From Basidiobolus meristosporus CBS 931.73 (lineage: Eukaryota; Basidiobolomycota; Basidiobolomycetes; Basidiobolales; Basidiobolaceae), in contig MCFE01000094.1 of the NCBI GenBank assembly GCA_002104905.1, positions 110,872 to 174,871 of the forward strand: 64,000 nucleotides of DNA. Direction: 5' to 3'. The notes under the pieces are model-generated. The model worked only from the letters and a program-made list of their open reading frames with translations, ran no database searches and was not told where the DNA came from. Each line of letters opens with the position of its first letter. Position 1 is the stretch's first letter. A program made the translations under genes and the position numbers. This document shows positions 36,232-64,000 of the stretch, piece after piece.

Positions 36232-39200
36232 ATGGATCTTAAAGAAGGTATATATATATGTATTTTCAAATACCTGTTCGTCCCCAAAAGTCTAACGATA
36301 TTTTATCATTTCCTAAGAAATTGCTCCCGCGCCCAGCAAATCTGAAGATACCTCAACACCAAAAATACACCCAGCATCATCTACCTCAACACCCAATGAA
36401 GATGATAGTATCGAAAGCTCTTTCACCTTCTCTCATACAAAGACAGGAAAGCTCTCACAGCATTCTGACTGGTCGGTTACTCAAGTAGACACTGGTACCA
36501 AGGAAGGGTTTGCAAAATACAAAAGAGATGGCCCTCGAGCGCTGAAAATTTCGATTCATCCTACAAAATCAGCAGAGCAGCATTTTCGACGAGAGTTAGA
36601 GAAAACCCTGAGCCCAAATACGAAATTCTCGAACTCTTATGTTAGCACTGCTAGTTGGAACCAAACCTCGATGGAGTACGATCCTTGGGCCCACGAAGTA
36701 ATGGACGTAGACAAGCTTAATAGTTCTGTGAAAACGAAACTCGACGACCTCAAATTCGTCTTGTACAAGTATCGTGAGCTGGAAGCGTTGCCGCTTTGCG
36801 CGGATATTTTAAATGAGCTTGCTGTACCATTTTATTCATCACCTATAAATGGTAATATACCCAGCAAGACCGTACGCATTGCAAACACTTATCTTCCGCG
36901 TCATTTATAGTCAACGAATGCATGAAGGCTCTTGATATTTACGAGTATATTCGCGTCAATTTTTCGGCATGTGGTCCTCAGGTAAGATGTTTTTTTGCGT
37001 ACTTAGAGAAGGGCTACTTATTGAGCCATTCTTTGAAATCGATTCAGAATTATTACAGCCAGATCATTTGGTGTTGCCAGCAACTTGTTGTGCCACAGCC
37101 AATTCTCAGAGTAAAGTGACCGCTCTTCCATGGATGATTTGTGGTTTTGTATTAATGGGTGTGCTCTTCAACTGTAGTTTCGGGTTGTGGCCTTGTTCGA
37201 AAAAATCTTCAACTCCATATTTACTTCGGCGTTGCATCCAATCCCCGCTAACGTTATATTTGTAATGGTCATCAATTGTGTGAAGTTGCTGGTGACAATC
37301 AAATCTTCCAACACCATATCGAACAATCAAATAGACAAAGGGCAAGATCGATTCATTCCTGACAAGATTCGCGACTTTTTCACAAGACTTTGCTCCGGTA
37401 GAACTGTTTCTGGTGCTCCGCTGAAGCCCGATGCGATCAAAAGCGAGGGCCACATAAGATCATATGGAGATGAGGTTCTAACAAAATACATACTGATCGA
37501 TGGCTTAGTGAGATGTTTAAGCTTTGAGGAAGCTGCGATGAAGGACGTAGTTTTGGATTTCTTAGCCGAGGTAAGATTTCCTTATGCTTTCTGTATAGAA
37601 GCTAACTCATCAACTAACCGAACCACAGTTCGTAACTCCTAAACTAGTGATAACCCCGTATTACGATCAGATTCTAAGTAAATTAGCAAGGATAAGTAAG
37701 TGTCGGTTTAGTACAGGCTGTAGGAAGTACAGAGACTAAATAACACTTAACTGTTCAGCGTCGAGCTTTCTTCTGAATGCTGATCTTCAAGATGTCAATA
37801 TCTCAGAGCTGTCCCAATCTTTCCGATGTAGATTGATATATTTTTTGGACTTAAATTTGCCACTGTCATACGAGAGGCTTTCGCCAACCACAGTGCAGCA
37901 TATCGCACAGGCATTCATTACCGGCTTATATCTCAAAGAAACCTTATCACCCCATCCAATCCAGCGCCGTGGGAGCAATTCACCACTATACGAGGAAGAG
38001 AAATTCTCTGGAAAAAACGGCAATGCTCAGCTTTCCACCCTAGAAAGATGCATTAAAGATAGACTGATCAGTATATGGAATGATGGCCATAAAGATGCCT
38101 TCGTCAAGTCTTTTCAAATGATGGTATTTACACCGCCGTATTTCAAAGTCGGACTTGTCTAACGAGTATAACGTATGTATTAGATTACCCGCATGCATAT
38201 TAATGAGATCGTTCCACTTTACTGGCAAGTTGCATTCGAGCTGAAGGACCATATCGGAAGTGATTTTGTTAAAGCAACATTGCCTTCCTTGTTCTCGGTA
38301 AGTGGGGCATTCTGAGTTCGCGATCAACTGGTTTATTCATAATATTGATTTTTGTAGAAGGTTGTTGGCTTACGCGTAATCGCAGAAGGGTCACTATCAT
38401 TACTTCTTCTTGAGCTGGCTCGTGTGTATCCTCAATCTTTCTATAAACCATTTCTGATATGCGCCAGTACCAACTCTTACAAGAAGATTGTAAAGTGCCT
38501 GCAATTACTAGACCAATTGAAAAGTCTTATTGGAGGCGAACGAATCTTCCTTCATGATGTTGACTTCGTGACTGTTTTACTGTTAAACAACGTCAACCTG
38601 GAGGTCTCCCATAGGCTATCACAAAATGGAAAGACTGAAGCATTAAGAGAGTCAAATCCGCCGATGTCTGACAATGTTACTCTTGGCCAGCTGATTATGG
38701 TCCAAGAATTTATATGGTTTTTACAAGATCTCAAGAAAGCCTCAAAAACATTCATGCTTTCGGACCCACAGTTAAACCGTCAAAGTCGCAAGTTATTAAT
38801 AGAGGTTGAAAAGAGGATATCTTTATATCTAGCAGCCTGGGAAGCCAGCCAGAGTATTGCTATTTCGATTCCTTTTCGAGTACTCTATTGCCAGTTACTG
38901 AAGGAGATTAGGCTTTTTTGTAAGCACACTACACGCCCTGCTTGGCTTCAACGCACAATTGCCTGGTTGAAAGAGTCGGATCTGACTCCTGTAGCACCGC
39001 ATCGAAAGAACTCTAGTGATATCTCATTTCACACTCATGACCAGATGGAGTTTACCATAACGAAGTTCCAAGAAATATACAAAGCGACGGTCCTGGATAA
39101 ACCTACGAGCGAGCACCCGCTCAGGAAAACTTGTAAAAACCAAACATCTTTTCGAGGTCTATCTAGGACCCCTCCTGAGTGGTGTCCAGTTTCTGCGGAT

Positions 39201-42200
39201 ACCCCAACTTCGGAACAGTTGAGCAATCCGACAGTTGTGCTTGCAAAGCTGGTGAATTCCAACAACCACCTGCAAATATCTTCGCGCTGTGATAAATTAG
39301 CCAAGGCTTCTTACGACCTCACCATAAATATTTTATCGTTGCTCGTCACCTCTCATATTTGTTTACACGAAGACGACTTACTTCTACTTTTGGACTATCT
39401 TTGGAGCCAAGGTATTATGGATGCACGACAGTCAAAGCTAGAGCTTGTCGCCTTCCTATTCAATTATTGTGGTGAGAAGGTGCCTGATGCGGTGACTCGG
39501 AGGTTTCATCAGTGTTTACACAATGGCGACAATGCTAAACTCGATGCCATTAGGAAGATGTACATTATCTTTAGTCAGCGAGGACGTATACATTCACAAC
39601 ACTACATCACAGATCAGCATCGACGAAAGCCCTTCAAGGCGGCTGGACACACTGTCACATTCGTGTCCACCGATCTGGGCTCGCCTACTTTCACAGCAAG
39701 TATCTCCTCGTGGCTTTCGGAGTTGAGTACAAGCAATATGTCTTGGAAAGAGCTTCAAACAATCCAGGAGCTTGGATGGAAAAAGGAAGACAGCTCCTCC
39801 AAGAGAGACATCAATATGTATGCCCTGACATTGTTGCCCACTGTCTTCTTCGACTACCAATTGGACTCAATTACTGCAGTAGAGAATAGCCACAAATCGC
39901 GAGCTGTGGTCGTTTCCTCGATTTTGGAGAATATGTCATTCAATTCAATCTATACCCTGTTCGACCCGCGGGTTGAGGTGAGTGTCTCAATGTGGGATTG
40001 CGTATCATACTTTACTCGAGATGATCCTAGTGTATTTCTACGAAAATATCTCGAGGGATTAAGCTCCCAATCCATTGAGCACCAGTGCGAGCTTCTTGGG
40101 AAGCTGAGGTCGCTGATTTTGTTTCAGAAGAAACATTCGCCATCGTTCACTTACATCCTTTTCAATTACCTAACTGGACTTTTGAAGTGGCATCATCGAG
40201 ACAACAGAGCCCATACGCTTCCCATGTTTGCCCACGTACTCCCAATAATCGCCGAGCTGATCCCATCCAGCAATGAGCTCTCTATACGCGAGTTCCGAAA
40301 AAATAAGATAGAGTGGTTCTTTAATCCGACCAGCGAGTTCTGGCCAGGTGATGACCCAAGCCTAGCATCTCCGGCAGATGTGGTGGCGCCCGGCCCCACC
40401 AGTTGTCCCTCAGAAATCCCAAACTGCACATTTCAGATGACCATGCTAAGAATTGCTCAGATACATTTCATGTTCAATTTTGTTTCACGCTATCCGCGAG
40501 AAGCCATCAACGTGAATCGGGTAGTAGAATCGTTCAGCCCCATTCCCTGGGAGAACAGAATACTCGAGTTCGACTGGGACGAGTTGAATAGTGAAGCAGG
40601 TTTTACGCAAAACCAGAATGAGTCGAAGATATCAAACATCATGGCATCTGGCCAAATACATGGGACGTTGAAATCCAACAATCAACTCAGATTGCTTTCG
40701 GCTCTGCAGTGCCGTGCTTGGATGCATTTCATGGAAACCATCGTCTTTGCCCTCCCTAATAATTTCAATGACCGGGAGGAGCTGGAGCGAATCCTTTCTG
40801 ATGTCAACAGCGTGCTCAAGTACCATGGGGATGATCTTGGTCTAGTCACCCAAGCGCTCGTGCTATACATCAATGTATCCGCCTCCTTTAGACGACTATT
40901 CACCTCCTCTCGAGGTTACCACCTCTTTGTCCCAGCGTTGTTCCAAGGCTATTTCGAGGCGTACCACTCACCGGCGGTGCAATCCAGTATAGAGTACGCA
41001 TGGGCTCGGTTCTATTCTCTACATGAGGATTCATTTATACTGCAGGCGCTAGGGTGCCTTGTTCCTATCATCCTCAAAGCACGCACCAAGGCTCCCAAGA
41101 TTGGCGCACTGATGACCAAATCGTTGTTCAAACTGTTTGGTGTCTTGGAGGAGCCTCCTCTCTCAGATCTAATGGGCATTGGCCAATCTGCCATGACACC
41201 GAGTGGAGAATTGATATCCAGTAACATTCCAGAGGTCCAGATGAGAAGCCTCCATAAGGTGGCATTATCTGCTGGCGCAGGGCTCCGTCACGCTGTATTG
41301 GGCAAAACCTACCTATTTACATATCACGACCTGTTTCGTCTGTTCATGACGGTGATTGCCTACGATCCTAGCTCAATCCGATCTGAGCAATTCCTGAAGG
41401 TTTTATCCAGCCTTCTGCCGTTGTTTGTCGAGAAGAGCGCATCACTGAGAAATTTTGCCGTAGAAGGGATTTCGGCACTCATCCCGGTGTTTTTGAAGTT
41501 TTCCCGGGGCACCAAATCCTCCCATTCCGAGAAACCATTTGGCAATATGCAGTCCGACAGCACGGGGTTCTTCAATGACCATCTTAATGACGGCCCTCTG
41601 GCTTCGATTTTCGATGTCAACCAGAAACGCAAGAAGCATTGGCAGCACACCAACCGGATCCCTGTCAAGCTGGAATTCTTGAAGCTGATTGAGACCTACG
41701 CTGAGCTTGGGTTGCCCATTAGCAATACGCAGCGCAATGAGCTGTACCTGATAGCACGTTCGATTTTACGCGACCAATCTGCCCTCCGAAACCCTGCTTC
41801 TACAGAATGGCTCGGTAACTTCTTTTGCAGAACTCTGCTCCCTGTTACCGATCTCAACGAAGCAAAAGAATCGGTCTGTGTATTTCTTCGATTGATCGGT
41901 ATCGCATTCAGAGCATACCACAAATGCTGCGACTTTTCCGGGTTATTTCGAGGCCTGTCCCAGCTCATCAGGCACTTTGAAGATAAACTATCGACGGAAA
42001 TTTTGTACCTTCTCCGTGATAAGTTTATCGCACCCGCATTGGCGATGATAGCCCAGGAAGAGCTCGACCATGATAGTCCATCATTTGGCTTGCTATGCGA
42101 TAGCTTGGTAGCGCTTTTCATCACCATGATGGCGTTCACTCAGATCGACCTATTCCAGGAGTTGAACAAGGTTGTCCTGACTCCAACGTTCATGAAGTTC

Positions 42201-43454
42201 ATCCTGATTCCTATCTGTATGAAGCTCACTGTCCAGAATAGCACTGGCGTCTTGACCCCTGTGATAACTGACGCCCATCGCCACAAATACAGAGAGTACT
42301 GGTTGAGGATGATTGCCTGCCTTAAGCGAGATTGCCTTCGTCAATTGGATAAGTTATCCAAACTGTCCATGCTATCATCAAACATTCCGACGACTCCAGT
42401 GACAGAGCTGGTGAACACCACTGCCATAGACCAGTCTCTCACGCAGCACACATTCGTAACCTCGGCAATGCTGATGCTTCACTTCATCGCTTTCAAGATC
42501 ATCTTTGTTCGCGGGGAAAAGCACCTGAACGAACACCCGGAGATTTGGAAGGACATCTCGTACTTTATGAAGAAGGTCTTCTCTCAAAGTCACCTGTTAG
42601 ATGCCGAATCGAGTGGCCACTCAAACCCAACCTCCCCTCAGATTGATCCACGAGGACACCAACCGAACCTAATCGCCAAAACATCTCTCAAACCATTTGA
42701 GTATGTGATGTGGTCATTCTTCGAGTTTCTGACGCTGTACAAACACCCGCTGTTGATGTACTTCCAAGGATTTATCTCAAACAAGCTTCCGTCGAATATC
42801 GGGAGGGTAGGCTACAGAGGGATCTTAACCAGAGACCATTCCCGCTCGTCTAGTCCGCTTAGCCCGCGCGAATCATCGAGCCAACCAAAATGGCGATGCT
42901 GGGGTGGTGCTTCTATAGTTGATTCGTTCACTCGAACTGAGTCGTATGTTGGACCAGCATCCCTTACGCCAACCTACTTAGCAAACAAATCATCACCAAA
43001 CCTTTCAGCCTCTCCTATGCTTGATTGTCCATCACAAACAGCATCGAAGCCAGATAGGCAAAAGCTGACTATCCATATCCCAACTCGAGCAAATACTCCA
43101 TCTATACAGGACGCAGAGGCTCACTCCCCGCTAAGCTTCAAATCAAACACCAACCGTACCAGCTCATCTTTCTCCCCCACTACCCCACGTCGCTCGTCGG
43201 ATACTACCAATGCTGCCCTATCTACTACCAACAAGCTGACCAACCAGACTCTATCCATCATTTCAAATGTGCAGAACTTCTTTCACTGCCTTTCGAAGCC
43301 CCCAGAAATGATCAACCAATGGGATTCCTCGACAGCACTTGAGAAGCTTCGTGCGGAAACAGCCATGGTCGTTAGTTTCTTCCCCACCTTATTTGCCAAG
43401 GAGGCCTCAAACAGGCGGGAAACGCATCCCCATCCCCCAGAGTCCTCAACTTAG
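36232..43454 (+). CDS. UNC80-like giant helical-repeat protein, 2,237 aa
   Basis: Nine exons: 36232-36247, 36318-36851, 36911-36981, 37059-37115, 37178-37570, 37629-37695, 37759-38123, 38184-38297 and 38358-43454; the sum is 6714 nt, in frame. Residues 1-150 are Ser/Thr-rich and disordered. From about 180 on the protein is a continuous alpha-solenoid, and the last 250 residues are again Ser/Pro-rich. Blocks such as DLTINILSLLVTSHICLHED, SPAVQSSIEYAWARFYSLHE and DSFILQALGCLVPIILKA resemble my recollection of fungal UNC80-domain proteins. In animals UNC80 is a scaffold of the NALCN sodium-leak channel, and the fungal channel relative is Cch1. The alternative large-solenoid family, Furry/Mor2/Tao3, was considered, but its PGVDPxFD signature is absent. 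Function is therefore inferred by family only. Confidence 0.55.
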
Positions 43455-46395: not shown

Positions 46396-49141
46396 TTAGC
46401 GCTTCTCGTATCTGTCGTCGTAATCCGGTACAGGGAACATCGGAGGGTTTTGGAACCCTTGCGGATTCGGGTATTGCCCGTATCCATAGTCGAATTCGTC
46501 TGGCATCGGCATCCCCATGGCTGGGAATGAAGTTCCGTTCATTCCTCCCCCGAAACGAGGTGGTTCAGGGAAAGGTGTAGGCAAAGCCATGTAGGAATTG
46601 GGCATGGGTGACGCCGAATATGCGCCGTGATTTCCGGATGAGGGAAACGCCTCTGGCATGGTTGGACGGCTCGCGTTCCAATCAGGCATCTATGGTCAAC
46701 ATGTTAGCTAACAGAGAACACTCCTCATTCTTGTGTAAATCAACTTACTCTAGCTGGGAAATATTGAGTCCCATTAACCCCTCCATATGCGCTTGCATCT
46801 GGTTCAACAGAACTACCAGGCCGGGATGCGTGTGATCCCTGCGACGGGCTGTAGGAGTTTTTGCTTGGGGTCTGGTTTTGACGACTAGGAAGGGGTGGCG
46901 TATTCTGGGTGGGCCTACTTGGAAGTGGTGGTGAAGGCCGCTGTAGGGTGTGTACATGTGGTGGAGATATTTTTTGTATCGGTATCCTTGGCGCCGGGGT
47001 AGGATACTGTTGGGCAGGAGAAGGAGGAAGTGGAGGTGAAGGCTGTGGAACAGGAGGGCGTGTAAGCGTCGAGTAGTTTGGCATTGGTGGGCGCGAATGT
47101 GGCGATGAAGGCTGCTGTCCAGAGTGCGGAGAAAATGGTAAGGGTTGCTGCATAGGAGGCCCTGCTGGTGTAGTAGAGGGGAACTGTTGTAAAGGAGGTC
47201 GATTCTGAGGAGGGAATGGCCGCGCCGAGGGATTTGGGAAGGATGGTGATTCATGCAATGGTGGGGCGGAGGGAAGTGGATTGTATTGTGCTTTGGGACC
47301 ATTCAACAACCCTAGAGGAGGAGAATAGCTGGATGAGACTCGCCCAGGCTGAGCATATGGATAAGGGTCAGTTGCTGATTCCTTGGAGTCACCTGGACCG
47401 ACGTTAGAAACATTAGATGGTGTGAAGCCAGGTTGTGGGGAAGAAGCATGGCTGCTGTGGTTGGTTGGGACACGACCGGGCGGAGCGAATGGGTAAGGAC
47501 CTGTTGCTGACTGCTTGGAGTCGGATGCCCCCGGAGGTGCAAAGTTGGGCTGTGGCGAGGAAGTGGGAGATGGAGTCACAGGAGAGTAGTTTGTCGGAGT
47601 TCTTCCAGGCTGAACAAATGGATAGGGACCTGCTACTGACTGCCTAGAGTCAGATGGGCTAACATTGGAAAGACTATGTGCGGGACCAGGCGGTGTAAAG
47701 TTAGGCTGTGGTGTAGAAGTGGGAGAGGGAGCCTCATGAGAATAGTTGGACGGAACTCGTCCAGGCTGAGCATATGGGTAAGGGCCTGCTACTGACTGCC
47801 TAGAGTCGGGTGGGCTAACGTTGGAAGGATTTTGTGTAGGTCCAGGTGGTGCAAAGTTGGGTTGTGGCGTGGATGTAGGGGAGGGAGCCTCATTTGAGTA
47901 ATTTGTCGGAGCTCTTCCAGACTGAACAAATGAATAAGGGCCTGTTCCTGACTGATTAGGGTTAGTTGGACTAGCATTCGAAAAGTTGTGGATAGCTCCT
48001 GGCGGTGTAAAGTCAGGTTGTGGCGTGGAAGTAGGAGAGCCATTGGAATGGTTTGTTGACACTCGTCCGGGTTGAGCAAATGGATAAGGGCCTGTTGGTG
48101 GCTGATTAGGGCCATTTGGGCTGGCATTCGAAAGATTGTGGATCGCTCCTGGTGGTGTGAAGCCAGGCGGTGACGTGGAGGTAGGAGCTCCATGAGAATA
48201 ATTTGTGGTAGCTTGTCCAGGCTGGGCAAATGGATAAGGACCTGCTCCTGACTGTTTAGAGTCAGCTGGGCTAACATTGGATAAATTGTGCATAGGTCCG
48301 GGCGGTGTAAAATTAGGTTGTGGCGTCGATGCGGAAGCATCATGAGGAAGTAACGGCTTCACAGGTGGAGTTGCCAGCGGAGAGCTTTGGCTAGCCTGTG
48401 TTCCTTGAAGATTGGGATGCACCGGCAGCTCGCTTGAGGTTGGAGTACTTATCGGAGAAGGAGTACCAGTTTCAGCCAGTTTTGGGTTAGCTACATTACC
48501 GTTAGTAATGCTTGGACCTGGGGGTGGGGTATTGACTTTCGGATTAGTAGGGTTGGCTACAGCAGGCTTTGCTGGTAATTTGATAGGCACTGGTGCGAAA
48601 AAGGCAGGCTTCTTTGTTGGATCGAAGGGTTTGTGTGAGCCATCCTTTGAAAGCCTCGGATTAGTCATAGACACTACCACAGTAGAAGTCATTTCAACCA
48701 CTTACCGCTGGGTAGTAAGTAAATTCCAGATAAATCTCACCCGCAGGAATGTTCTTGTGGTTGTTGGTCAGAGGGAACCAAGCTATGTATAAGGTTAGTA
48801 CTACCTCCTAACAAAGATTTCTGAAAAAGCCTACCGTCATGTGTATGTTGTTCAAGAACCTTTTTTAGCTCTACAACCACTTCGCCAATGTATGCGTGAG
48901 ACCTCAAGTTTTCATCGTAACACTGAATGCCTAGCTTCTCCCGGCCTTCTACAATCTTGAAGGTCACTACTTCGTTCCAGGCTGGCTTTTGTCCACCGTT
49001 GTTGTCCGCACGTATGCGTTGGGTGGTTGCATTGTATTCAAATTGTAAAAAAGGATCTTGCTTTCCAATTTTTTGAACAACCAGCAAATCACGACCACTA
49101 CAGCATTTAACTTCCAAGGTACCTTTTACCTTAGCGGCCAT
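46396..49141 (-). CDS. Fic1/Inn1-like ingression C2 protein with long Pro-rich repeats, 857 aa
   Basis: Exons 48835-49141, 48706-48782, 46749-48644 and 46396-46689 (2574 nt). Residues 1-125 form a C2 domain: GTLEVKCCSGRDLL, KIGKQDPFLQFEYN, RADNNGGQKPAWNEVVTFKI and GEIYLEFTYYP. This version, with GKQDP and GGQxPxWNE, is typical of fungal ingression proteins (S. pombe Fic1, budding yeast Inn1), whose PxxP-rich tails bind SH3 domains of Cyk3/Hof1/Cdc15 at the division site. The tail here is unusually long: about seven degenerate 40-48-residue repeats built on STPQPNFTPPG ... LSNVSP ... GPYPFAQPGR, then dense PPLP/PxxP motifs. Inference: a cytokinesis or septum scaffold. The TTG upstream of the chosen ATG (49141) is not used. 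Confidence 0.8.
47400..48330 (-). repeat. Degenerate coding minisatellite of the ingression-type C2 gene
   Basis: About seven units of roughly 130-150 bp, each encoding a variant of TPQPNFTPPGP-x-HNLSNVSP-xDSKQSxxGPYPFAQPGR-xxTNYS. Boundaries are approximate. The unit length differs by multiples of three, so all copies stay in frame. Confidence 0.8.
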
Positions 49142-55272: not shown

Positions 55273-55416
55273 AGGAGGGAAAGTCACCAAGTTGGTGAAA
55301 TCTTTATTTGAGTTAAGAACTAATCTAAATACAAATAAAGAAGCCAATTAAGAGGTCTAGAACCTCTCTAATAAGTAGTCTAATTTATGTTTTGTTTCAT
55401 CTCTAATGTTTGTTTC
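55273..55416 (-). mobile_element. 3'-end fragment of the telomeric SINE-like element
   Basis: Starts AGGAGGGAAAGTCACC and continues GGTGAAATCTTTATTTG..., matching the 3' tail of the SINE-like element at 63252 (reverse orientation), including the shared stem-loop at 55284-55298 and AATAAA. It joins the truncated LTR exactly at a TTAG. A perfect 6-bp hairpin AGAGGT/ACCTCT lies at about 55352-55368. No TTAGGG repeats flank it. Confidence 0.75.
55412..55416. repeat. Target-site duplication, left copy (GTTTC)
   Basis: GTTTC directly precedes the left LTR and is repeated at 60104-60108 directly after the right LTR. Confidence 0.9.
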
Positions 55417-55766
55417 TGTTGTAAGAGTCTTGGAGATATTGGAAGTGATTGGGAGAACAAGTAGATTATGTGGTTTTCACTTAATGATTTATTGAATGTA
55501 AAAGTAGTATTTATACTTTTACATGGTCTTGGCATTACAAACACGTAGAATAGGTTAAGGAAGGTCCCAAGAACATGTGTGCAAAGTTTGGGGCTGTTTG
55601 GACAACTTTGAGAATTTTCATGTTCTGGGTACCTGGTATTTTGGTGAAAATATTCTAAGTAAATCCCGACAAGGAATTTGGTCAGTATTCTCTAGGATTT
55701 GAAGATGATGATCTAAGTGACTAAGTTAGGTGAATATTTAGGTGGAAAATACGAATTTTTACAACA
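55417..55766 (-). repeat. 3' LTR of the complete copia element
   Basis: 350 bp, inverted termini TGTTGTAA/TTACAACA. Just internal to it on the coding strand is a short purine run (GAGTGGGAG, 55767-55775) that fits a polypurine tract. Confidence 0.95.
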
Positions 55767-55777
55767 CTCCCACTCAG

Positions 55778-58700
55778 CTAAATGTTCATACTGACTAGTC
55801 CTAATTTTGACCTAAGATATTCAAACTTGTCTCTAGCTAATGGTTTGGTAAATATGTCTGCAATCATTTCATCTGTAGGACAGTAAACTAAGCTAACTAA
55901 GTTATTCTCTATAGCTTCATGTATGAAATGATGTCTAATATCTATGTGCTTGGTTCTAGCATGAAAAGTTGGATTTCTACCTAATTGTATACATCCTTGA
56001 TTATCTTGAAATAAAGTAATAGGCGTTTTTTGACATAGGCCTAAATCTGTAAAGAGCTTTCTTAACCACATTGCTTCTTTTGTAGCTTCACAGGCTGCCA
56101 TATACTCTGCCTCTGTAGTAGAAAGTGCTACGGTTGGTTGCTTTCTTGAATTCCATGAAATGGCTCCTTTACAGTAAAGAAAGGTGTATCCTGTGGTGGA
56201 TCTTCTGTCTTCTAAATTTTGTCCCCAATCAGCATCAGAGTATCCCACAAGATCCTGTTCTGAATCCTTATAAGTGTATCTTAAACAGATATCAGCAGTT
56301 CCTTTTAGGTATCTAAAAATCCGCTTAACTGCTGCAATATGATCAGATCCATAATTCTGATTATGTTGGCTGACAACTCCCACTGAATATGAGATATCTG
56401 GACGTGTTCCAAGCATGATATACATCAGACTGCCGACCATAGATTGATAAGGAAAGTCAGGGCTTTCAGATGGCACCAAGCTCTCTTGATTTGGTTGAGT
56501 TTTGACCAAGTTAAGGTTTGTCTCCATTGGGGTAGCTGCCGGTTTACAGTCTTCCATTTTGTACTTCTTTAGTATATCTTGAATATACTTGGATTGGCTT
56601 AGGGTAATAGTCTGGGTACTTCTGTCTATGGAGAACTTAATCCCTAAGTAGTAACTAAGTTCTCCTAGATCGGACATCTTGAACTCCTTAGATAGGCTGG
56701 ATTTAGTCTCTTCCAATGTTTTTAGGTTATTGGCGGCTATAATAAGATCATCCACATATAGAGCTAATAGAACTGGATTTGCTCTATCTGGCTTATAGTA
56801 TATACTATAGTCAGCATTACTCCTTTTGAAACTCAAAGATTCCAAATAAGAATCTATCTTGCAATTCCAGGCTCTCGGTGATTGTTTGAGACCATATAGT
56901 GACTTTTTAAGCTTGCAGACCAAATGGGGGTTATCTTGGTCAACAAAACCATCAGGCTGGTCCATATACACGTCCTCATCAAGTTCTCCATTCAAAAATG
57001 CAGTTTTTACATCCATTTGATGAATAAAAAACTTATATTTGGCTGCAATAGCCAATATTAATCTTATGGAATTAAACTTGGCTACCGGTGCAAAGGTCTC
57101 GGTATAGTCAAGTCCTTTTGTTTGAGAGTATCCTTTGGCTACAAGTCTTGCTTTGTATCTTTCAATTGTACCATCAGCCTTGTATTTTGTCTTGAAGACC
57201 CATCTGCATCCAATTGATTTTCGGTTGATTGGTAATTTGACTAAGTCCCAAGTTTGATTTTCCATCAGGGCCTGATATTCCTCAGTCATTGCAGATCTCC
57301 AAAACTTCGTCTGAGGGCTATTTAGGGCCTCTTTTACAGTCTGGGGTTCATCAACATGGACTGAATAGGCATAGGCTAAGTTTGTACCCTCATTGATATA
57401 GTAATTTGGGCTATTTCTTGTCCGATTGGATCTCCGGGCATTTGATACTGGAATGATCACTTCTGGGATATTCCTGGGCACTGATTCTGGCTGAACCACG
57501 GTTGTAGAGTCCTCTGGAGTGAAAAAATTTTCATTGTTTTGCTCTGATTCAATCCTGACAATTGGTGGACTTGAGATCAAATTTTCGTCATCATCTGATG
57601 TCATTTTTTGTGAAAATTTTGAATTTTCATCAAACAACACATCCCTGGACTTGATCAGCTTCTTTGCTTCGGTATTGTAGAGTCTGTATGCCTTACTCTC
57701 ATTGCAGTAGCCCAAAAATATGCATTTTACACTTTTTGGCTCAAATTTTGACTGATTTCCGGCCAGTTTTTTGGCATATGCTGTACACCCAAATATTCTT
57801 AGATGTTCTGCACTTGGTCTGTATCCATACCATGCTTCAAATGGAGTAGAATCACGAAGTATTCTGTTATAACTCCTATTTTTAAGATATACAGCAGTGG
57901 CAACTGATTCCGCCCAAAAATCATAGGATAATTTTTGATCATGGATCATAGATCTTGCCATATCAATTATTGATCTGTTAGCTCGTTCTGCTACTCCATT
58001 TTGCTGTGGGGAGTATGGTACAGTAGTCTCTTGCTTTATCCCATGAATTTTGCAGAAGTGGATGAAGAGTTTTGAGGTATATTCTCCACCATTGTCAGAG
58101 CGTATTTTCTTGATTTTTTCACCAGTTTCTCTCTCCACCATGGCTTTGAACTCCCTGAGCTTAGACAGAGCTTCTTCCTTTCTCTCCATGAAGTAGACCC
58201 ATGTGTATCTTGTATAATCATCAATAAAAGTGATTAAATACTTCATCCCGCCTAAGGATAAATTTTGCATAGGTCCACACAGATCTGAGTGAATTAGATC
58301 TAATTTTTTCTTAGTTTTGATTAACCCAGAGCTCTTGAACGGTTGTCTGGCTTGTTTCCCATATATGCAGGCTTCACAGTGCTCCAAAATAGCTGGGGGA
58401 TCAATTTTCACTCCAGAAATTAGCTGATCTTTGATCATTTTACGCAAATAATCAAAATTGATGTGTCCAAATCTCCTGTGCCAAAGCATTGGTGTTTCTT
58501 CATTTAAGTTACTTATATTGGCTTCCAGATATGATGGAATATAAGTCAACTTGTATAGGTTCTGATCTCTGATGCCCGAAGCAATATGGGCACCATTTTG
58601 ATCAGTGATCCTGCATCCAGAATTGTCAAAACTGAAACTGAGTCCTTCTGCTGTGGCCTTGCTTACAGAGAGTAGGTTCTTGGCTATTTCTGGTACATAG

Positions 58701-59749
58701 AGTACTTCTTTAAAGGTCAGTGTATGGCTTCCTTCACTGCTTCTAAGGTTTACTTGGATAGTTCCTTCTCCCACTGCATCAAGTGTTCTATCGTCACCCA
58801 TGAAAACCTTCTTAATTGGAATTTCTTGATATTGGGTAAAAAGTTCTTTTTGGTGTGTAAAGTGTTGGGAAGCTCCAGAGTCAATATACCACGTCTGAGA
58901 ATCCTTGTTTGTGGTCATATTTAGTGCAGATATGAATAGTCTATCTTCAGTTGTTACAGCATTTCCATATTCAGGCTTCTTTTGCTGATAATCTCTCTTT
59001 TTGAAACACCGGTCTGATGTGTGTCCTTTCCTTTTGCAGTAGTTGCAAAATAGGTTGCTGTTGCCTTTGTAGGGTCTTGGGTACCTCCTTTGTTGGTTAT
59101 CATTGCTTATTAAAGCATTTTCTTCTTCCTTCTTATTGGCGCTTGATTTTCTTAATTCTTCATCCAGGAGCCTTCCATATACGTAATTTAAGGTCAAATC
59201 TTCAGTTCTGGACTCTAGGGCTGATACAAGGCCCTGAAACTCGTCTGTCAGGCTATTCAGGATGGTAACTATCACATCCTCATCAGTAGTTGGTACGCCC
59301 ACAGATTCCATCTCATCTACCAGCAGGGTAATTCTGTTAATTAGATTTTTCATTTCTTCTCCTGGCAGCATCTTTGTAGTAAAGAATTTTCTTCTCAGAT
59401 ACATTTTCTTGGCAGCTGAACATGACTGGTAGGTGTCTTCTAATGCTTTCCAGGCATTCTTTGCCGTTTTTGCTCTTGAGCATTGAATTAGCAATTTGTC
59501 CTTGACATTAAGGCAAATGCAGTTAAAGGCACTTTGTTCTTTCTTCTGGTACTTCAAGGCTTCCTCTCCCACGTTTTTAGGAGGGCATTCTTCTCCCATG
59601 ACAATATCCCAAAGGCCTCTTTCTTGTAGCAGCATCTTCATCTTCACCTTCCACACTTGGTAGTTAGATCCATCCAACTTTTCAGCAGAGGGAAAAATTC
59701 CAGTAATAGCAGTAGTAGACATTGCAGAGAGTGACAGCTTGGGGCTCAT
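55778..59749 (-). CDS. Copia Gag-Pol polyprotein, 1,323 aa
   Basis: Domains in order: Gag (DUF4219/UBN2-like opening LDGSNYQVWKVKMKMLLQER), CCHC zinc knuckle (CNYCKRKGHTSDRC), aspartic protease (WYIDSGASQHFT), integrase with HHCC zinc finger (HRRFGHINF ... CEACIYGKQ) and the DDE core (HSDLCGP, KIRSDNGGEYTS), reverse transcriptase (MDVKTAFLNGELDEDVYMDQ, ALYVDDLI) and RNase H (GYSDADWGQNLEDRRSTTGY) ending TKPLARDKFEYLRSKLGL. The order protease-integrase-RT-RNase H is diagnostic of Ty1/copia. The start chosen is the ATG at 59749, five nt inside the 5' LTR boundary; the frame is also open through part of the LTR, but no ATG there is needed. All active-site residues are present. Gag and Pol share one frame with no shift. 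Confidence 0.95.
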   Translation of the reverse strand: MSPKLSLSAMSTTAITGIFPSAEKLDGSNYQVWKVKMKMLLQERGLWDIVMGEECPPKNVGEEALKYQKKEQSAFNCICLNVKDKLLIQCSRAKTAKNAWKALEDTYQSCSAAKKMYLRRKFFTTKMLPGEEMKNLINRITLLVDEMESVGVPTTDEDVIVTILNSLTDEFQGLVSALESRTEDLTLNYVYGRLLDEELRKSSANKKEEENALISNDNQQRRYPRPYKGNSNLFCNYCKRKGHTSDRCFKKRDYQQKKPEYGNAVTTEDRLFISALNMTTNKDSQTWYIDSGASQHFTHQKELFTQYQEIPIKKVFMGDDRTLDAVGEGTIQVNLRSSEGSHTLTFKEVLYVPEIAKNLLSVSKATAEGLSFSFDNSGCRITDQNGAHIASGIRDQNLYKLTYIPSYLEANISNLNEETPMLWHRRFGHINFDYLRKMIKDQLISGVKIDPPAILEHCEACIYGKQARQPFKSSGLIKTKKKLDLIHSDLCGPMQNLSLGGMKYLITFIDDYTRYTWVYFMERKEEALSKLREFKAMVERETGEKIKKIRSDNGGEYTSKLFIHFCKIHGIKQETTVPYSPQQNGVAERANRSIIDMARSMIHDQKLSYDFWAESVATAVYLKNRSYNRILRDSTPFEAWYGYRPSAEHLRIFGCTAYAKKLAGNQSKFEPKSVKCIFLGYCNESKAYRLYNTEAKKLIKSRDVLFDENSKFSQKMTSDDDENLISSPPIVRIESEQNNENFFTPEDSTTVVQPESVPRNIPEVIIPVSNARRSNRTRNSPNYYINEGTNLAYAYSVHVDEPQTVKEALNSPQTKFWRSAMTEEYQALMENQTWDLVKLPINRKSIGCRWVFKTKYKADGTIERYKARLVAKGYSQTKGLDYTETFAPVAKFNSIRLILAIAAKYKFFIHQMDVKTAFLNGELDEDVYMDQPDGFVDQDNPHLVCKLKKSLYGLKQSPRAWNCKIDSYLESLSFKRSNADYSIYYKPDRANPVLLALYVDDLIIAANNLKTLEETKSSLSKEFKMSDLGELSYYLGIKFSIDRSTQTITLSQSKYIQDILKKYKMEDCKPAATPMETNLNLVKTQPNQESLVPSESPDFPYQSMVGSLMYIMLGTRPDISYSVGVVSQHNQNYGSDHIAAVKRIFRYLKGTADICLRYTYKDSEQDLVGYSDADWGQNLEDRRSTTGYTFLYCKGAISWNSRKQPTVALSTTEAEYMAACEATKEAMWLRKLFTDLGLCQKTPITLFQDNQGCIQLGRNPTFHARTKHIDIRHHFIHEAIENNLVSLVYCPTDEMIADIFTKPLARDKFEYLRSKLGLVSMNI

Positions 59750-59753
59750 AACC
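59740..59753 (-). other. Candidate primer-binding site overlapping the start codon
   Basis: Immediately inside the 5' LTR the coding strand reads GGTTATGAGCCCCA, and the ATG of the polyprotein lies within it. It partly resembles copia-type PBS sequences complementary to initiator tRNA, but the match is not exact. Confidence 0.4.
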
Positions 59754-60103
59754 TGTTGTAAGAGTCTTGGAGATATTGGAAGTGATTGGGAGAACAAGTA
59801 GATTATGTGGTTTTCACTTAATGATTTATTGAATGTAAAAGTAGTATTTATACTTTTACATGGTCTTGGCATTACAAACACGTAGAATAGGTTAAGGAAG
59901 GTCCCAAGAACATGTGTGCAAAGTTTGGGGCTGTTTGGACAACTTTGAGAATTTTCATGTTCTGGGTACCTGGTATTTTGGTGAAAATATTCTAAGTAAA
60001 TCCCGACAAGGAATTTGGTCAGTATTCTCTAGGATTTGAAGATGATGATCTAAGTGACTAAGTTAGGTGAATATTTAGGTGGAAAATACGAATTTTTACA
60101 ACA
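59754..60103 (-). repeat. 5' LTR of the complete copia element
   Basis: 350 bp, no difference seen from the copy at 55417-55766 in a base-by-base reading. Confidence 0.95.
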
Positions 60104-60112: not shown

Positions 60113-60444
60113 TGTTGTAAGAGTCTTAGAGATATTGGAAGTGATTTGGAGAACAAATAGATTATGTGGTTTTCACTTAATGATTTATTGAATGTAAAAG
60201 TAGTATTTATACTTTTACCTGGTCTTGGCATTACAAACACGTAGAATAGGTTAAGGAAGGTCCCAAAAGCATGTGTGCAAAGTTTTGGGCTGTTTGGACA
60301 ACTTTGAGAATTTTCATGTTCTGGGTAAATATTCTAAGTAAATCCCAACAAGGAATTTGGTCAGTATTCTCTAGGATTTGAAGGTAATGATCTAAGTGAC
60401 TAAGTTAGGTGAATATTTAGGTGGAAATACAAATTTTTACAACA
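60113..60444 (-). repeat. Older copia LTR, 332 bp
   Basis: Same termini as the complete element but with an internal deletion of about 18 bp (after TTCTGGGTA) and several substitutions. It is the 3' LTR of the truncated copy that follows. Confidence 0.93.
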
Positions 60445-61669
60445 CTCCCACTCAGCTAAATGTTCATACTGACTAGTCCTAATTTTGACCTAAGATATTC
60501 AAACTTGTCTCTAGCTAATGGTTTGGTAAGTATGTCTGCAATCATTTCATCTGTAGGACAGTAAACTAAGCTAACTAAGTTATTCTCTATAGCTTCACGT
60601 ATGAAATGATGTCTAATATCTATGTGCTTGGTTCTAGCATGAAAAGTTGGATTTCTACCTAATTGTATACATCCTTGATTATCTTGAAATAAAGTAATAG
60701 GCATTTTTTGATATAGGCCTAAATCTGTAAACAGCTTTCTTAACCACATTGCTTCTTTTGTAGCTTCACAGGCTGCCATAAACTCTGCCTCTGTGGTGGA
60801 AAGTGCTACGGTTGGTTGCTTTCTTGAATTCCATGAAGTTGCTCCTTTACAGTAAAGAAAGGTATATCCTGTGGTGGATCTTCTGTCTTCTAAATTTTGT
60901 CCCCAATCTGCATCAGAGTATCCCACAAGATTCTGTTCTGAATCCTTATAAGTGTATCTTAAGCAGATATCAGCAGTTCCTTTTAGGTATCTAAAAATCC
61001 GCTTAACTGCTGCAATATGATCAGATCCATAATTCTGATTATGTTGGCTGACAACTCCCACCAAATATAAGATATCTGGACATGTTCCAAGCATGATATA
61101 CACCAGACTGCCGACCTTAGATTGATAAGGAAAGTCAGGGCTTTCAGATGGCACCAAGCTCTCTTGATTTGGTTGAGTTTAGACCAAGTTAAGGTTTGTC
61201 TCCATTGGGGTAGCTGCCGGTTTACAGTCTTCCATTTTGTACTTCTTTAGTATATCTTGAATATACTTGGATTGACTTAGGGTGATAGTCTGGGTACTTC
61301 TGTCTATGGAGAACTTAATCCCTAAGTAGTAACTAAGTTCTCCTAAATCAGACATTGTGAACTCCTTAGATAGGTTGGATTTAGTCTCTTCCAATGTTTC
61401 TAGGTTATTGGTGGCTATAATAAGATCATCCACATATAGAGCTAATAGAACTGGATTTGCTCTATCTGGCTTATAGTATATACTATAGTCAGCATTGCTC
61501 CTTTTGAAACTCAAAGATTCCAAATAAGAATCTATCTTGCAATTCCAGGCTCTTGGTGATTGTTTGAGACCATATAGTGACTTTTTAAGCTTGCAGACCA
61601 AATGGGGGTTATTTTGGTCAATAAACCCATCAAGCTGGTCCATATACATGTCCTCATCAAGTTCTCCAT
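60445..61669 (-). pseudogene. Truncated, broken copia Pol copy (RT C-terminal part and RNase H)
   Basis: Covers the region from LNGELDED (RT) to the polyprotein end, about 95% alike to the complete element. It carries an in-frame stop at 61179-61181 where the intact copy has Lys (in the ETNLNLVKTQPNQ region). At 61670 homology ends mid-codon region and TTAGGGTTAGGG begins, so the 5' two thirds of the element and its 5' LTR are missing. Confidence 0.93.
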
Positions 61670-61684
61670 TTAGGGTTAGGGGGG
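61670..61684 (+). repeat. Interstitial telomere repeat at the copia break
   Basis: TTAGGGTTAGGGGGG directly abuts the broken copia copy on the left and the LINE 3' end on the right. Confidence 0.9.
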
Positions 61685-62933
61685 AGACAGTCACCAACAG
61701 GTGAAATCTTTATTTCAGTTGAAACAAAGAAGCCAGCACTACTGTTGTAGCTTTGATACAAGAGTGTGTAGCTGAGGGGAATTTGTAGGTAAGTTAATAA
61801 GAAGTGATGATAGTTCTTCAGTGCTCAAGACACTGTTCAGTGGTAAGTGGGGTAGCAAGAGAGGTAAGAATGACTTGTGAACAACATTAATGAGGGGAAT
61901 GTGATAAGGATTGATATTCATCATAAAGGGAGTGTGCTGCTGCAGATATTGCTGCCAAAGGTCTGTCAAGTACTTCAGGTAGGCCAGCTTGGGTTTTTCT
62001 GACTGCAGAATATAATGAGCAAACTGCTTGACTTCAGGATCTCCAAGTATAGTTCTCCAGCAGGAGCCAGGTGTTGTGTGGTGTGTTCTCTTCCAGGCCT
62101 TAATCAGTGGATTGTTGCAGTTGTGAAGTCTGAGGTATAATCTGGTTCTAAGGTAGAGAAGTCTGATCTTATAGGGCATAAACCCAAAAGCACCAAGAAT
62201 AGCATGTCTGTAGGGGCATTCAGGCAAATGAGGCACCAAGGAGGTAATGCACCATACTGTAAACTTGTCAAGCTTAGTGCAGTCTCTAGAAGTAAGAGAG
62301 AGAAGTGGTAAGCCAAATTCCAGGACAGGGAAGACAAACTGCTTGAGTAGAAGGAGGCAGCTGGGAGCTGAAGTTGTAGGAGGAGTAACAGCCAGTAGCT
62401 TGTGGAGTGCCTGTCTTGCCAGGATAATTCTCTTCTTCAGGTGTGCTCCAGAGTCTAGTCCAGTAGGAAGGAAAGGAAAGCCAAGATATGTAGCAGAAAC
62501 CTGAGCAGGTAGAGTGGAGTTCTCCAAGTTGATGGGAGAGCCCAAAGGTACAGTCTTTGCAATGGAAAGCTGGAGATTATTCTTCTGCAGATACTGGTGG
62601 ATGGTCTGGGAGTCTTGTTGCACATTGGAGGAGGATATTCTGATGTCATCAGCAAAGAGAGTAACCAGGCAGTCAGCTGAGAGTCTTGGGAAATCATTCA
62701 GGAAGATGGCAAACAGTATAGGACCAAGCACAGAGCCTTGAACCGCTCCATTAGGAACTGAGAACACAGCTGATTGCTCACTTGGGTGCAGAATTCTTGC
62801 TTGTGGATCCAGAAACAGGGACCTGACAAGGAGGGTGAGAGAGGTACTGGAGAAGCATTGCAACTTGGACCAAAGCAGATTTCTGTCAACTGAATCAAAG
62901 GCCTTAGTAATATCAAACAGAACAGAGGGATAC
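61685..62933 (-). mobile_element. 5'-truncated telomeric non-LTR retrotransposon, copy 1
   Basis: Bounded on both sides by TTAGGG repeats. On the minus strand it holds the C-terminal part of an RT ORF, a short 3' UTR with AATAAA, a TCACC-TGTT-GGTGA stem-loop (61691-61704) and ends in CTGTCT followed by a C-run. The 5' end is cut inside RT and capped with telomere repeat at 62934. Confidence 0.9.
61739..62932 (-). CDS. LINE reverse transcriptase, C-terminal part (5' truncated)
   Basis: About 397 codons open to the stop at 61739-61741. RT blocks in order: A, LFDITKAFDSVDRNLLWSKL (catalytic Asp); B, NGAVQGSVLGPILFAIFLND; C, LVTLFADDIRISS (catalytic Asp pair); then the thumb-like region AKTVPLGSPINLENS and a long C-terminal extension rich in Leu, His and Pro without an obvious zinc knuckle. 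The upstream RT fingers and any endonuclease are missing. This is a dead 5'-truncated copy with an undamaged 3' part, so recent. No start codon applies. Confidence 0.88.
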   Translation of the reverse strand, partial: YPSVLFDITKAFDSVDRNLLWSKLQCFSSTSLTLLVRSLFLDPQARILHPSEQSAVFSVPNGAVQGSVLGPILFAIFLNDFPRLSADCLVTLFADDIRISSSNVQQDSQTIHQYLQKNNLQLSIAKTVPLGSPINLENSTLPAQVSATYLGFPFLPTGLDSGAHLKKRIILARQALHKLLAVTPPTTSAPSCLLLLKQFVFPVLEFGLPLLSLTSRDCTKLDKFTVWCITSLVPHLPECPYRHAILGAFGFMPYKIRLLYLRTRLYLRLHNCNNPLIKAWKRTHHTTPGSCWRTILGDPEVKQFAHYILQSEKPKLAYLKYLTDLWQQYLQQHTPFMMNINPYHIPLINVVHKSFLPLLLPHLPLNSVLSTEELSSLLINLPTNSPQLHTLVSKLQQ

Positions 62934-62950
62934 TTAGGGTTAGGGGGGGG
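62934..62950 (+). repeat. Interstitial telomere repeat capping LINE copy 1
   Basis: TTAGGGTTAGGGGGGGG; follows the truncated RT and precedes a 12-bp SINE-tail remnant. Confidence 0.9.
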
Positions 62951-62962
62951 AGGAAAGTCACC
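62951..62962 (-). mobile_element. 12-bp 3'-terminal remnant of the SINE-like element
   Basis: AGGAAAGTCACC is exactly the 3' terminus of the element at 63252, sandwiched between telomere repeats. It looks like an extremely 5'-truncated insertion. Confidence 0.65.
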
Positions 62963-62970
62963 TTAGGGGG
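62963..62970 (+). repeat. Single telomere repeat unit with extended G-run
   Basis: TTAGGGGG followed by more G; separates the 12-bp remnant from LINE copy 2. Confidence 0.8.
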
Positions 62971-63213
62971 GGGAGACAGTCACCAACAGGTGAAATCTTT
63001 ATTTCAGTTGAAACAAAGAAGCCAGCGCTACTGTTGTAGCTTTGATACAAGAGTGTGTAGCTGAGGGGAATTTGTAGGTAAGTTAATAAGAAGTGATGAT
63101 AGTTCTTCAGTGCTCAAGACACTGTTCAGTGGGAAGGGGGGTAGCAAGAGAGGTAAGAATGACTTGTGAACAACATTAATGAGGGGAATGTGATAAGGAT
63201 TGATATTCATCAG
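62971..63213 (-). mobile_element. 5'-truncated telomeric non-LTR retrotransposon, copy 2 (about 240 bp)
   Basis: Matches the 3' end of copy 1 from the terminal C-run to the codon region NINPYHIPLINVVHKS with only a few differences (for example GCGCTA for GCACTA). It is cut 5' at about 63212 and capped by TTAGGG. Confidence 0.9.
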
Positions 63214-63251
63214 TTAGGGTTAGGGTTAGGGTTAGGGTTAGGGTTAGGGGG
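63214..63251 (+). repeat. Interstitial telomere array, six units
   Basis: Perfect TTAGGG units ending in a G5 run that joins the SINE-like element. Confidence 0.95.
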
Positions 63252-63328
63252 AGGAAAGTCACCAAGTGGTGAAATCTTTATTTACTTATGACAAGTATCC
63301 AAAGAAGCCATGTTAATCTGAAGTAATT

Positions 63329-63447
63329 CCTAGAAAGCTAGGTCTGAGAGATATCTTCCTGGTAAGCCAGGTCTGAGAGTTGAGAAGCTGAGTGGTACTG
63401 TATTTCCTAGTTAGCTAGGTCTGAGAGAGGTTTCCTGGAAAGCCAGG
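63329..63447. repeat. Four covarying short hairpin repeats inside the SINE-like element
   Basis: CCTAGAAAGCTAGG (63329-63342), CCTGGTAAGCCAGG (63358-63371), CCTAGTTAGCTAGG (63406-63419) and CCTGGAAAGCCAGG (63434-63447). Each is a 5-bp perfect stem with a 4-nt loop followed by a TCTGAGA-like spacer. The A-T pair in units 1 and 3 becomes G-C in units 2 and 4. Confidence 0.85.
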
Positions 63448-63696
63448 CCTGAGAAGTGAGAATCTGAGTATATCTGAGGTGAGTTTTACTGATTTGCGGT
63501 AGCTTGTTTGTGGCCAGAATGGCCAGTAGACTGGGGGAGCTTAGGGGGATTTCTGGGTGATCACTGGCCAAATTTACTAGGCAAATCTGACCAATTAGCA
63601 TTTCAAGGATTTCAGCCAATCAGAACCTTTACTTTGCCCGATGGTTGATCAAGCCATCTCCCAATGAGCACACATCAATTTATTGATCAAATTTTG

Positions 63697-63769
63697 TTGG
63701 ATCCAGGATTTGAACCCACAACCAAGGGTATGGAAGGGTTAGGGATAACCACAAGGCTAAGTGTTCTTG
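63697..63769 (-). ncRNA. tRNA-like head of the SINE (pol III promoter)
   Basis: A box and B box are about 30 bp apart, as in tRNA genes. The acceptor and T stems pair poorly, so this is a t-RNA-derived promoter and not a functional tRNA. Its anticodon-side region reads CCCTAACCC, the complement of the telomere repeat. Confidence 0.55.
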
Positions 63770-63770
63770 G

Positions 63771-64000
63771 TTAGGGTTAGGGTTAGGGTTAGGGTTAGGG
63801 TTAGGGTTAGGGTTAGGGTTAGGGTTAGGGTTAGGGTTAGGGTTAGGGTTAGGGTTAGGGTTAGGGTTAGGGTTAGGGTTAGGGTTAGGGTTAGGGTTAG
63901 GGTTAGGGTTAGGGTTAGGGTTAGGGTTAGGGTTAGGGTTAGGGTTAGGTTAGGGTTAGGGTTAGGGTTAGGGTTAGGGTTAGGGTTAGGGTTAGGTTAG
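63771..64000 (+). repeat. Terminal telomere array (TTAGGG)n
   Basis: About 38 tandem TTAGGG units to the window edge, with two shortened TTAGG units near 63947 and at the very end. Orientation puts the chromosome end at the right. Confidence 0.99.

Follow-up and report, generated by a model that had tools for sequence, protein, structure and literature searches.

Background

The chromosome ends of Drosophila carry HeT-A, TART and TAHRE, retrotransposons that are stacked head to tail with their 3' ends inward, are truncated at the outer 5' end, and occur as autonomous elements with non-autonomous partners. Telomere association is also known for Coprina, an endonuclease-deficient Penelope-like element. 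In eels, UnaL2 and UnaSINE are a long interspersed nuclear element (LINE) and a short interspersed nuclear element (SINE) with a common 3' stem-loop tail; to our knowledge, stringent LINE/SINE pairs such as these are not telomere-directed. Here we describe a LINE and at least three short families of the fungus Basidiobolus meristosporus CBS 931.73 that have a 3' tail in common and that appear to be directed to chromosome ends. They were recognized in a stretch of 64,000 nucleotides (assembly GCA_002104905.1, contig MCFE01000094.1, positions 110,872 to 174,871 of the forward strand), which is called the window below. The window is the right end of the 174,871-bp contig, and the assembly comprises 89.0 Mb in 1311 contigs.

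Other elements of this kind are known from fungi and insects. MoTeR, FoTeR and Cnl1 have the 5' end toward the terminus, short interstitial tracts and truncated copies, and they belong to the clade with a restriction-like endonuclease, as described in the sections cited here of PMC12857005 and PMC7367193. The second of these sources also presents MoTeR2 as a partner of MoTeR1 with common 3' sequence. SART1 of Bombyx, in the cited part of PMC7265360, requires at least three repeats, and the bottom strand is cut inside the tract. Athena, which is Penelope-like and endonuclease-deficient, is characterized in the cited part of PMC10088271 as telomere-associated, with telomeric units embedded. A literature search over the titles and abstract openings of open-licence papers found no telomere-targeted SINEs, no SINE partners of a telomere LINE, and no telomeric retrotransposons of Basidiobolus.

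Results and discussion

Position and orientation of the elements

Four elements were found in series at the right end of the window (Table 1), all on the minus strand and all with their 3' ends toward the chromosome interior. Within the window there are 41 occurrences of the motif TTAGGGTTAGGG, each on the plus strand and none before 61670 (mean in shuffled sequences 0.01). The initial annotation, which was made from the sequence alone, had recognized the four pieces, and their place, order and orientation were all borne out. It had also described all four as 5'-truncated, which is correct for three of them but not for the last SINE, whose 5' end is complete. The first LINE copy encodes only the C-terminal part of the reverse transcriptase (RT) protein (PF00078, E = 9.2e-17).

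Across the assembly there were 707 LINE 3' tails (18-mer: 653 forward, 54 reverse). For the 32-mer tail of SINE1 the counts were 370 forward and 21 reverse, and for the general tail common to the families they were 1535 forward and 144 reverse. These strand counts alone say little, because the contigs mostly have their telomere at the right. This is an odd feature of the assembly, in which the telomeric 36-mer was counted 6568 times against 68.

Position and orientation were read from the first 100 of the 707 LINE tails listed, 98 of which were on contigs of known length. There were 35 tails on contigs longer than 40 kb (20 contigs), and every one of them pointed its 5' side to the nearer end, which lay within 18.3 kb in all cases and within 5 kb in 19. 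On the small contigs 52 of 63 tails faced the nearer end. Interior exceptions outside this sample were clusters at ~95-99 kb on a 218-kb contig (C558) and at ~58-60 kb on a 69.6-kb contig (C726). The initial annotation had proposed telomere targeting in a uniform orientation, a pairing of LINE with SINE, and a geometry with priming on the G-strand side, and it had named as contrary evidence that most copies lie far from telomeres, or occur in both orientations, with no TTAGGG at the junctions. What was found was 35 of 35 terminal tails in one orientation and 528 tails that abut TTAGGG, with C558 and C726 as exceptions, and the proposed features, together with a tail common to LINE and SINE, are supported across the genome.

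Evenly spaced LINE tails were seen in two places, three of them 283 bp apart at C324:150707-151314 and three 120 bp apart at C2:259987-260268. This spacing suggests recombinational amplification within arrays.

A common 3' tail

The LINE and the short families SINE1, SINE2 and F4 differ in their upstream sequences and have the 3' tail in common. The tail consists of GGCUUCUUU, a variable loop, AAUAAAGAUUUCACC, a further loop and GGUGA, followed by a C-rich end of about six C, and it is closed by UAA where the junction has TTA. Two hairpins were predicted, with z scores of -3.2 (LINE), -1.3 (SINE1 of the window), -4.1 (a SINE2) and -3.1 (an F4); one SINE2 variant had a different predicted fold. 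In an alignment of ten chosen rows from the four families, 29 of the 75 columns were invariant and 97.5% of the cells were paired. Compensatory changes were absent from the shared stems in this alignment; we therefore claim no covariation, and the evidence for the hairpins is sequence conservation together with folding energy. A SINE2-type tail lacking TTAGGG was also found at 55284 of the window, ~8.7 kb from the end, with a flank resembling a copia long terminal repeat (LTR).

Internal A and B boxes of the RNA polymerase III (pol III) type were found at the 5' end of SINE1. They match 21 of the 22 positions of the consensus strings, and no such match was obtained in 2000 shuffles. No tRNA homology of SINE1 was detected with Rfam at E ≤ 1 or with ARAGORN. 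The SINE1 head also has GGGTTAGGG between the two boxes, at 63736-63744 of the window; this reads CCCTAACCC on the sense strand and might serve as an internal site of annealing.

Junctions and outer ends

TTAGGG stands directly before GAGACAG, with at most five further bases, in 528 LINE tails versus 707 tails in all. At least four units precede GAGACAG in only 7 LINE-type places and in 30 SINE-type places. Individual junctions were read from 131 tails in fetched pieces, a non-random set in which 30 loci were the best LINE matches, 30 were the first SINE1 tails listed, and 7 were picked by place. There were 0-2 telomeric units on the inner side of 111 of the 131 tails, and the maximum was 7. 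Among LINE tails, 3 had no unit, 37 had one, 15 had two, 3 had three and 1 had four; for SINE1 the numbers of tails with zero to seven units were 4, 25, 7, 5, 5, 1, 2 and 2; for SINE2 those with zero to two units were 5, 9 and 2; and for F4 there was one tail with no unit, two with one, one with two and one with six. On the inner side, 29 tails adjoin a SINE1 5' end, 31 a truncated LINE and 9 a truncated SINE1; the neighbour of the remaining 62 is other sequence, in a few cases an element tail or an older spacer. Exactly one unit was present at 24 of the 29 junctions behind a full SINE1 5' end. The G-run of the LINE varies in length from 2 to 9. Of 28 contig ends, 13 had no terminal tract, and the tracts of the other 15 comprised 8-40 units (median 32).

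Outer ends were compiled for 130 elements, 17 of which were matched by their tail only and 24 of which ran off the piece. The 89 that were left led to the tail of the next element within 45 bp (54), to telomere (16), to a short telomeric tract and then other sequence (6), or to other sequence (13, some of them artefacts). Four SINE rows at 217 in this compilation are artefacts of LINE/SINE chaining, and a LINE row at 34 is a tail-only cross-match. The 34 mapped LINE 5' ends span 34-3376 nt and have 33 distinct values; the value of 4398 nt is that of the reference copy itself and is a minimum length.

Probable addition of elements to ends

At 61670 the intact copia copy and contig C21 go on with CAAAAATGC, and the window has TAGGG, that is, TAGGGTTAGGGGGG followed by the LINE. 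The remainder of the broken copia was absent between 61670 and the contig end. C21 has a copia break of its own, which is capped by one SINE and then by a 40-unit tract that reaches the contig end. An intact-looking Ty1/copia open reading frame (ORF) of 1367 amino acids (55778-59881) lies just inward of the broken copy in the window.

The flanks of the 131 tails were also compared with one homologue each, in pieces that mostly extended 1-4 kb past the tail. There was no homologue in the sample for 32, and for 35 the homologues also entered telomere-like sequence. Where the homologue continued, its continuation was unseen beyond the element, within the piece, in 45 of 64 flanks and was found further out, within the piece, in 19 of 64. 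On inspection by eye, one of these 19 was a copia LTR, and the other 18 were additional copies of the LINE or SINEs or the tails that come next. Many elements are joined to ends that are non-telomeric or consist of retroelement sequence, and the telomeric sequence there is no more than their own tail could supply; for this reason addition to chromosome ends fits better than insertion into telomeres. The overall geometry of the insertion model in the initial annotation is therefore retained, and the model is refined to addition at ends, with priming presumably from a free end.

Adjacent SINE1 copies had a mean identity of 0.958 (n = 7 pairs), and 659 other pairs had a mean of 0.964 (standard deviation 0.022). 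The adjacent copies were no more alike than the others, which indicates that the members of these stacks were added separately. A dimeric RNA or a tandem duplication as the origin of the SINE stacks was ruled out for these seven pairs, though the spacing on C324 and C2 still hints at some amplification.

Proteins of the LINE

The initial annotation had called for a full-length LINE to be examined for an endonuclease. Both ORFs were identified in a copy that comprises an open frame of 523 codons, a TGA stop and an ORF2 of 922 codons. ORF2 is in the same frame as the first open frame, with TGA-CTA between them in all six matched copies (L036 3093-3095, minus strand, and five others), and the first Met of ORF2 falls inside the endonuclease domain. 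Stop-codon readthrough between the two is possible. In Pfam, ORF2 matched an RT domain and, weakly, an APE endonuclease, and no other nuclease domain. A complete N-terminal APE fold, together with an RT, was present in the model of a relative (P0001, with 63% identity to the LINE ORF2), and in this model-based picture the LINE would have its endonuclease N-terminal to the RT, the SART/TRAS-type domain order. The RT is of the PF00078 type, with LINE-1 and R2 as the best folds. A match of the LINE protein to a protein of B. meristosporus CBS 931.73 (P0005) had 98% identity and covered 26% of the query. A sequence search of the PDB at E ≤ 1 returned 12 sequences, which were LINE-1, R2, other reverse transcriptases and two weak names at chance level. 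The Glu of the APE motif is kept in all 46 other homologues with a residue there (of 51) and is Asp in all three members of the LINE's clade that cover the site; most other residues of the motif are retained.

Candidate TERT exons were located on contig C880, where there are two adjacent matches to the TERT RNA-binding domain, one of which contains a stop.

Proposed mechanism and alternatives

We consider it reasonably probable that element RNA is reverse-transcribed from the free 3' end of the G-strand, and that the end is then re-capped by telomerase or by another element. The RT of the LINE would recognize the common hairpin tail of the LINE, SINE1, SINE2 and F4 RNAs, and so would act on the short elements as well, with the UAA/C-run of the RNA as a telomerase-like template. 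The cDNA would start at the G-strand 3' end of the terminus, with a free end and not a nick as the primer; this terminus could be a telomere that has eroded, a break, or the previous element's end. Templating by the UAA/C-run would give TTAGGGGGG at the join on telomeric and non-telomeric ends alike, so that the TTA at the join would derive from the RNA, and the template model predicts that the transcripts of SINE1 and the LINE have their 3' ends at CCCCCCUAA. The cDNA, often 5'-truncated, would be the new chromosome end until it was capped by a following element or, as we suppose for the re-capping with repeats, by telomerase, and head-to-tail stacks would therefore extend outward.

The same geometry and letters would result if the endonuclease nicked a short telomere close to its base, and identical letters would also be left if telomerase had healed the copia break and an element had then been inserted at the second unit; both points weigh against priming from a free end. 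They belong to an explanation that we think unlikely but deserving of attention, in which the elements were inserted by endonuclease target priming inside telomeric repeats, as SART/TRAS and MoTeR are, and the long interstitial tracts were later broken so that short junctions survive. The APE fold is complete with most motif residues retained, some SINE1 junctions have 4-7 units, and long interstitial tracts are reported to be unstable in the part of the MoTeR work cited here (PMC7367193), all of which would suit such insertion. According to PMC7265360, however, SART1 needs three repeats or more and its insertions lie within telomeres, not at their end, while the junctions here mostly have one unit, to which the tail itself may contribute, and exactly one in most cases behind SINE1 5' ends. 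The replacement of the motif Glu by Asp in the LINE's clade also argues against nicking, and breakage in a long tract would be expected to drop the distal element, not to shorten the spacer.

It is improbable that the stacks spread chiefly through exchange between chromosome ends, by recombination or break-induced replication, and that little retrotransposition occurs today. Such spread would be consistent with the identical spacings on C324 and on C2, and with the 35 of 131 tails for which every flank homologue found also enters telomere-like sequence. The LINE copies compared (best matches) are mostly >99% identical, yet their 5' ends are nearly all different, the LINE G-runs vary, and adjacent SINEs are independent in the seven pairs. 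That the contig ends are chimeric, made by the assembly from telomeric reads, is hardly credible: the telomere-right orientation of the contigs is odd and many contigs are of 10-20 kb, but there are many junctions with differing breakpoints, and some elements lie as far as 18 kb from the ends of large contigs.

Because they are joined in places directly to broken or non-telomeric DNA, the LINE and the SINEs may be a second way of capping chromosome ends. A stronger version, which we put forward only tentatively, is a second, HeT-A-like capping system in a telomerase-bearing fungus, in which a LINE RT with a telomerase-template-like RNA end of about C6UAA extends any free 3' end, seedless breaks included, and pol III SINEs are interchangeable capping RNAs, like dispersed telomerase RNAs.

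Features of the window

Table 1. Elements and telomeric sequence at the right end of the window
Feature	Position	Strand	Remarks
Ty1/copia copy 2, broken mid-pol	60201..61670	-	95.8% identity to 55505-56992 of intact copy; the capped chromosome end
Single TTAGGG unit, from copia break to element tail	61670..61675	+	first T common with copia
LINE copy 1, 5'-truncated (~1252 of at least 4398 nt)	61676..62933	-	99% identity to copies on other contigs
LINE copy 1, 3' tail	61676	-	TTAGGGGGG-AGACAG
LINE shared 3' RNA tail: two predicted hairpins, then C-run and UAA	61676..61745	-	fold z -3.2; sequence common to four families
Telomeric junction TTAGGGTTAGGGGGGG, two units	62934..62949	+	
SINE1 remnant, 5'-truncated after 13 nt (GAGGAAAGTCACC)	62950..62962	-	exact match to SINE1 tail
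LINE copy 2, 5'-truncated at ~240 nt, tail TTAGGGGGGGG	62963..63212	-	100% over 240 nt
Six telomeric units	63214..63249	+	
SINE1, 5' end complete, LINE-type 3' tail	63250..63770	-	37 full-length copies compared; 391 exact tails genome-wide
Pol III-type boxes near SINE1 5' end: A at 63749-63759, B at 63706-63716	63706..63759	-	
Terminal TTAGGG tract, ~36 units, reaching contig end	63771..64000	+	

Further inward, the window contains a large ORF (38424-43454) with a match to the UNC80 C-terminal domain (E = 1.2e-32). Tandem repeats of ~150-156 bp at 47536-48326 lie within a minus-strand ORF (46740-48701) that had no Pfam match at E ≤ 0.001.

Comparison with known systems

In the sample, the copies stand at chromosome ends in a single orientation, as telomere-associated non-LTR retrotransposons do generally, with a few interior clusters elsewhere. 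The terminal head-to-tail arrangement with the 3' end inward is that of HeT-A and TART, and the priming step would be alike if our proposal is correct. HeT-A and TART are found in a host without telomerase and simple repeats, whereas Basidiobolus has (TTAGGG)n tracts and candidate TERT exons with matches to the RNA-binding domain. The partners in Basidiobolus are short elements, one of them with pol III boxes, and the tail ends in a C-run and UAA, not in oligo(A).

The system differs from SART1 and TRAS1 in that the primer strand is the G-strand, the junctions mostly have one unit, and the motif Glu is Asp. Insertion in tracts of at least three repeats, as in those elements, was not the pattern here, as read from the present junctions and not from the state at insertion. 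The outward 5' geometry, the short tracts and the truncation are the same as in MoTeR, FoTeR and Cnl1, but the Basidiobolus LINE has an N-terminal APE fold where elements of the CRE clade have a restriction-like endonuclease in its place, and it has several short partners with only the tail in common. It is also distinct from the Penelope-like elements, because its RT is of the LINE type (PF00078, with LINE-1 and R2 folds) and is accompanied by an APE domain. With UnaL2/UnaSINE it has in common the hairpin-bearing 3' tail of LINE and SINEs that characterizes stringent LINE/SINE pairs, but the Basidiobolus pair is telomere-directed.

Compared with these systems, what is new in Basidiobolus is a fungal telomere lineage of the APE type with several short families riding on its LINE, and sequence evidence for the capping of ends where a telomere was absent. 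The system may be a bridge between LINE retrotransposition and telomerase, and would offer a natural setting for endonuclease-independent end priming in an organism that is probably telomerase-positive.
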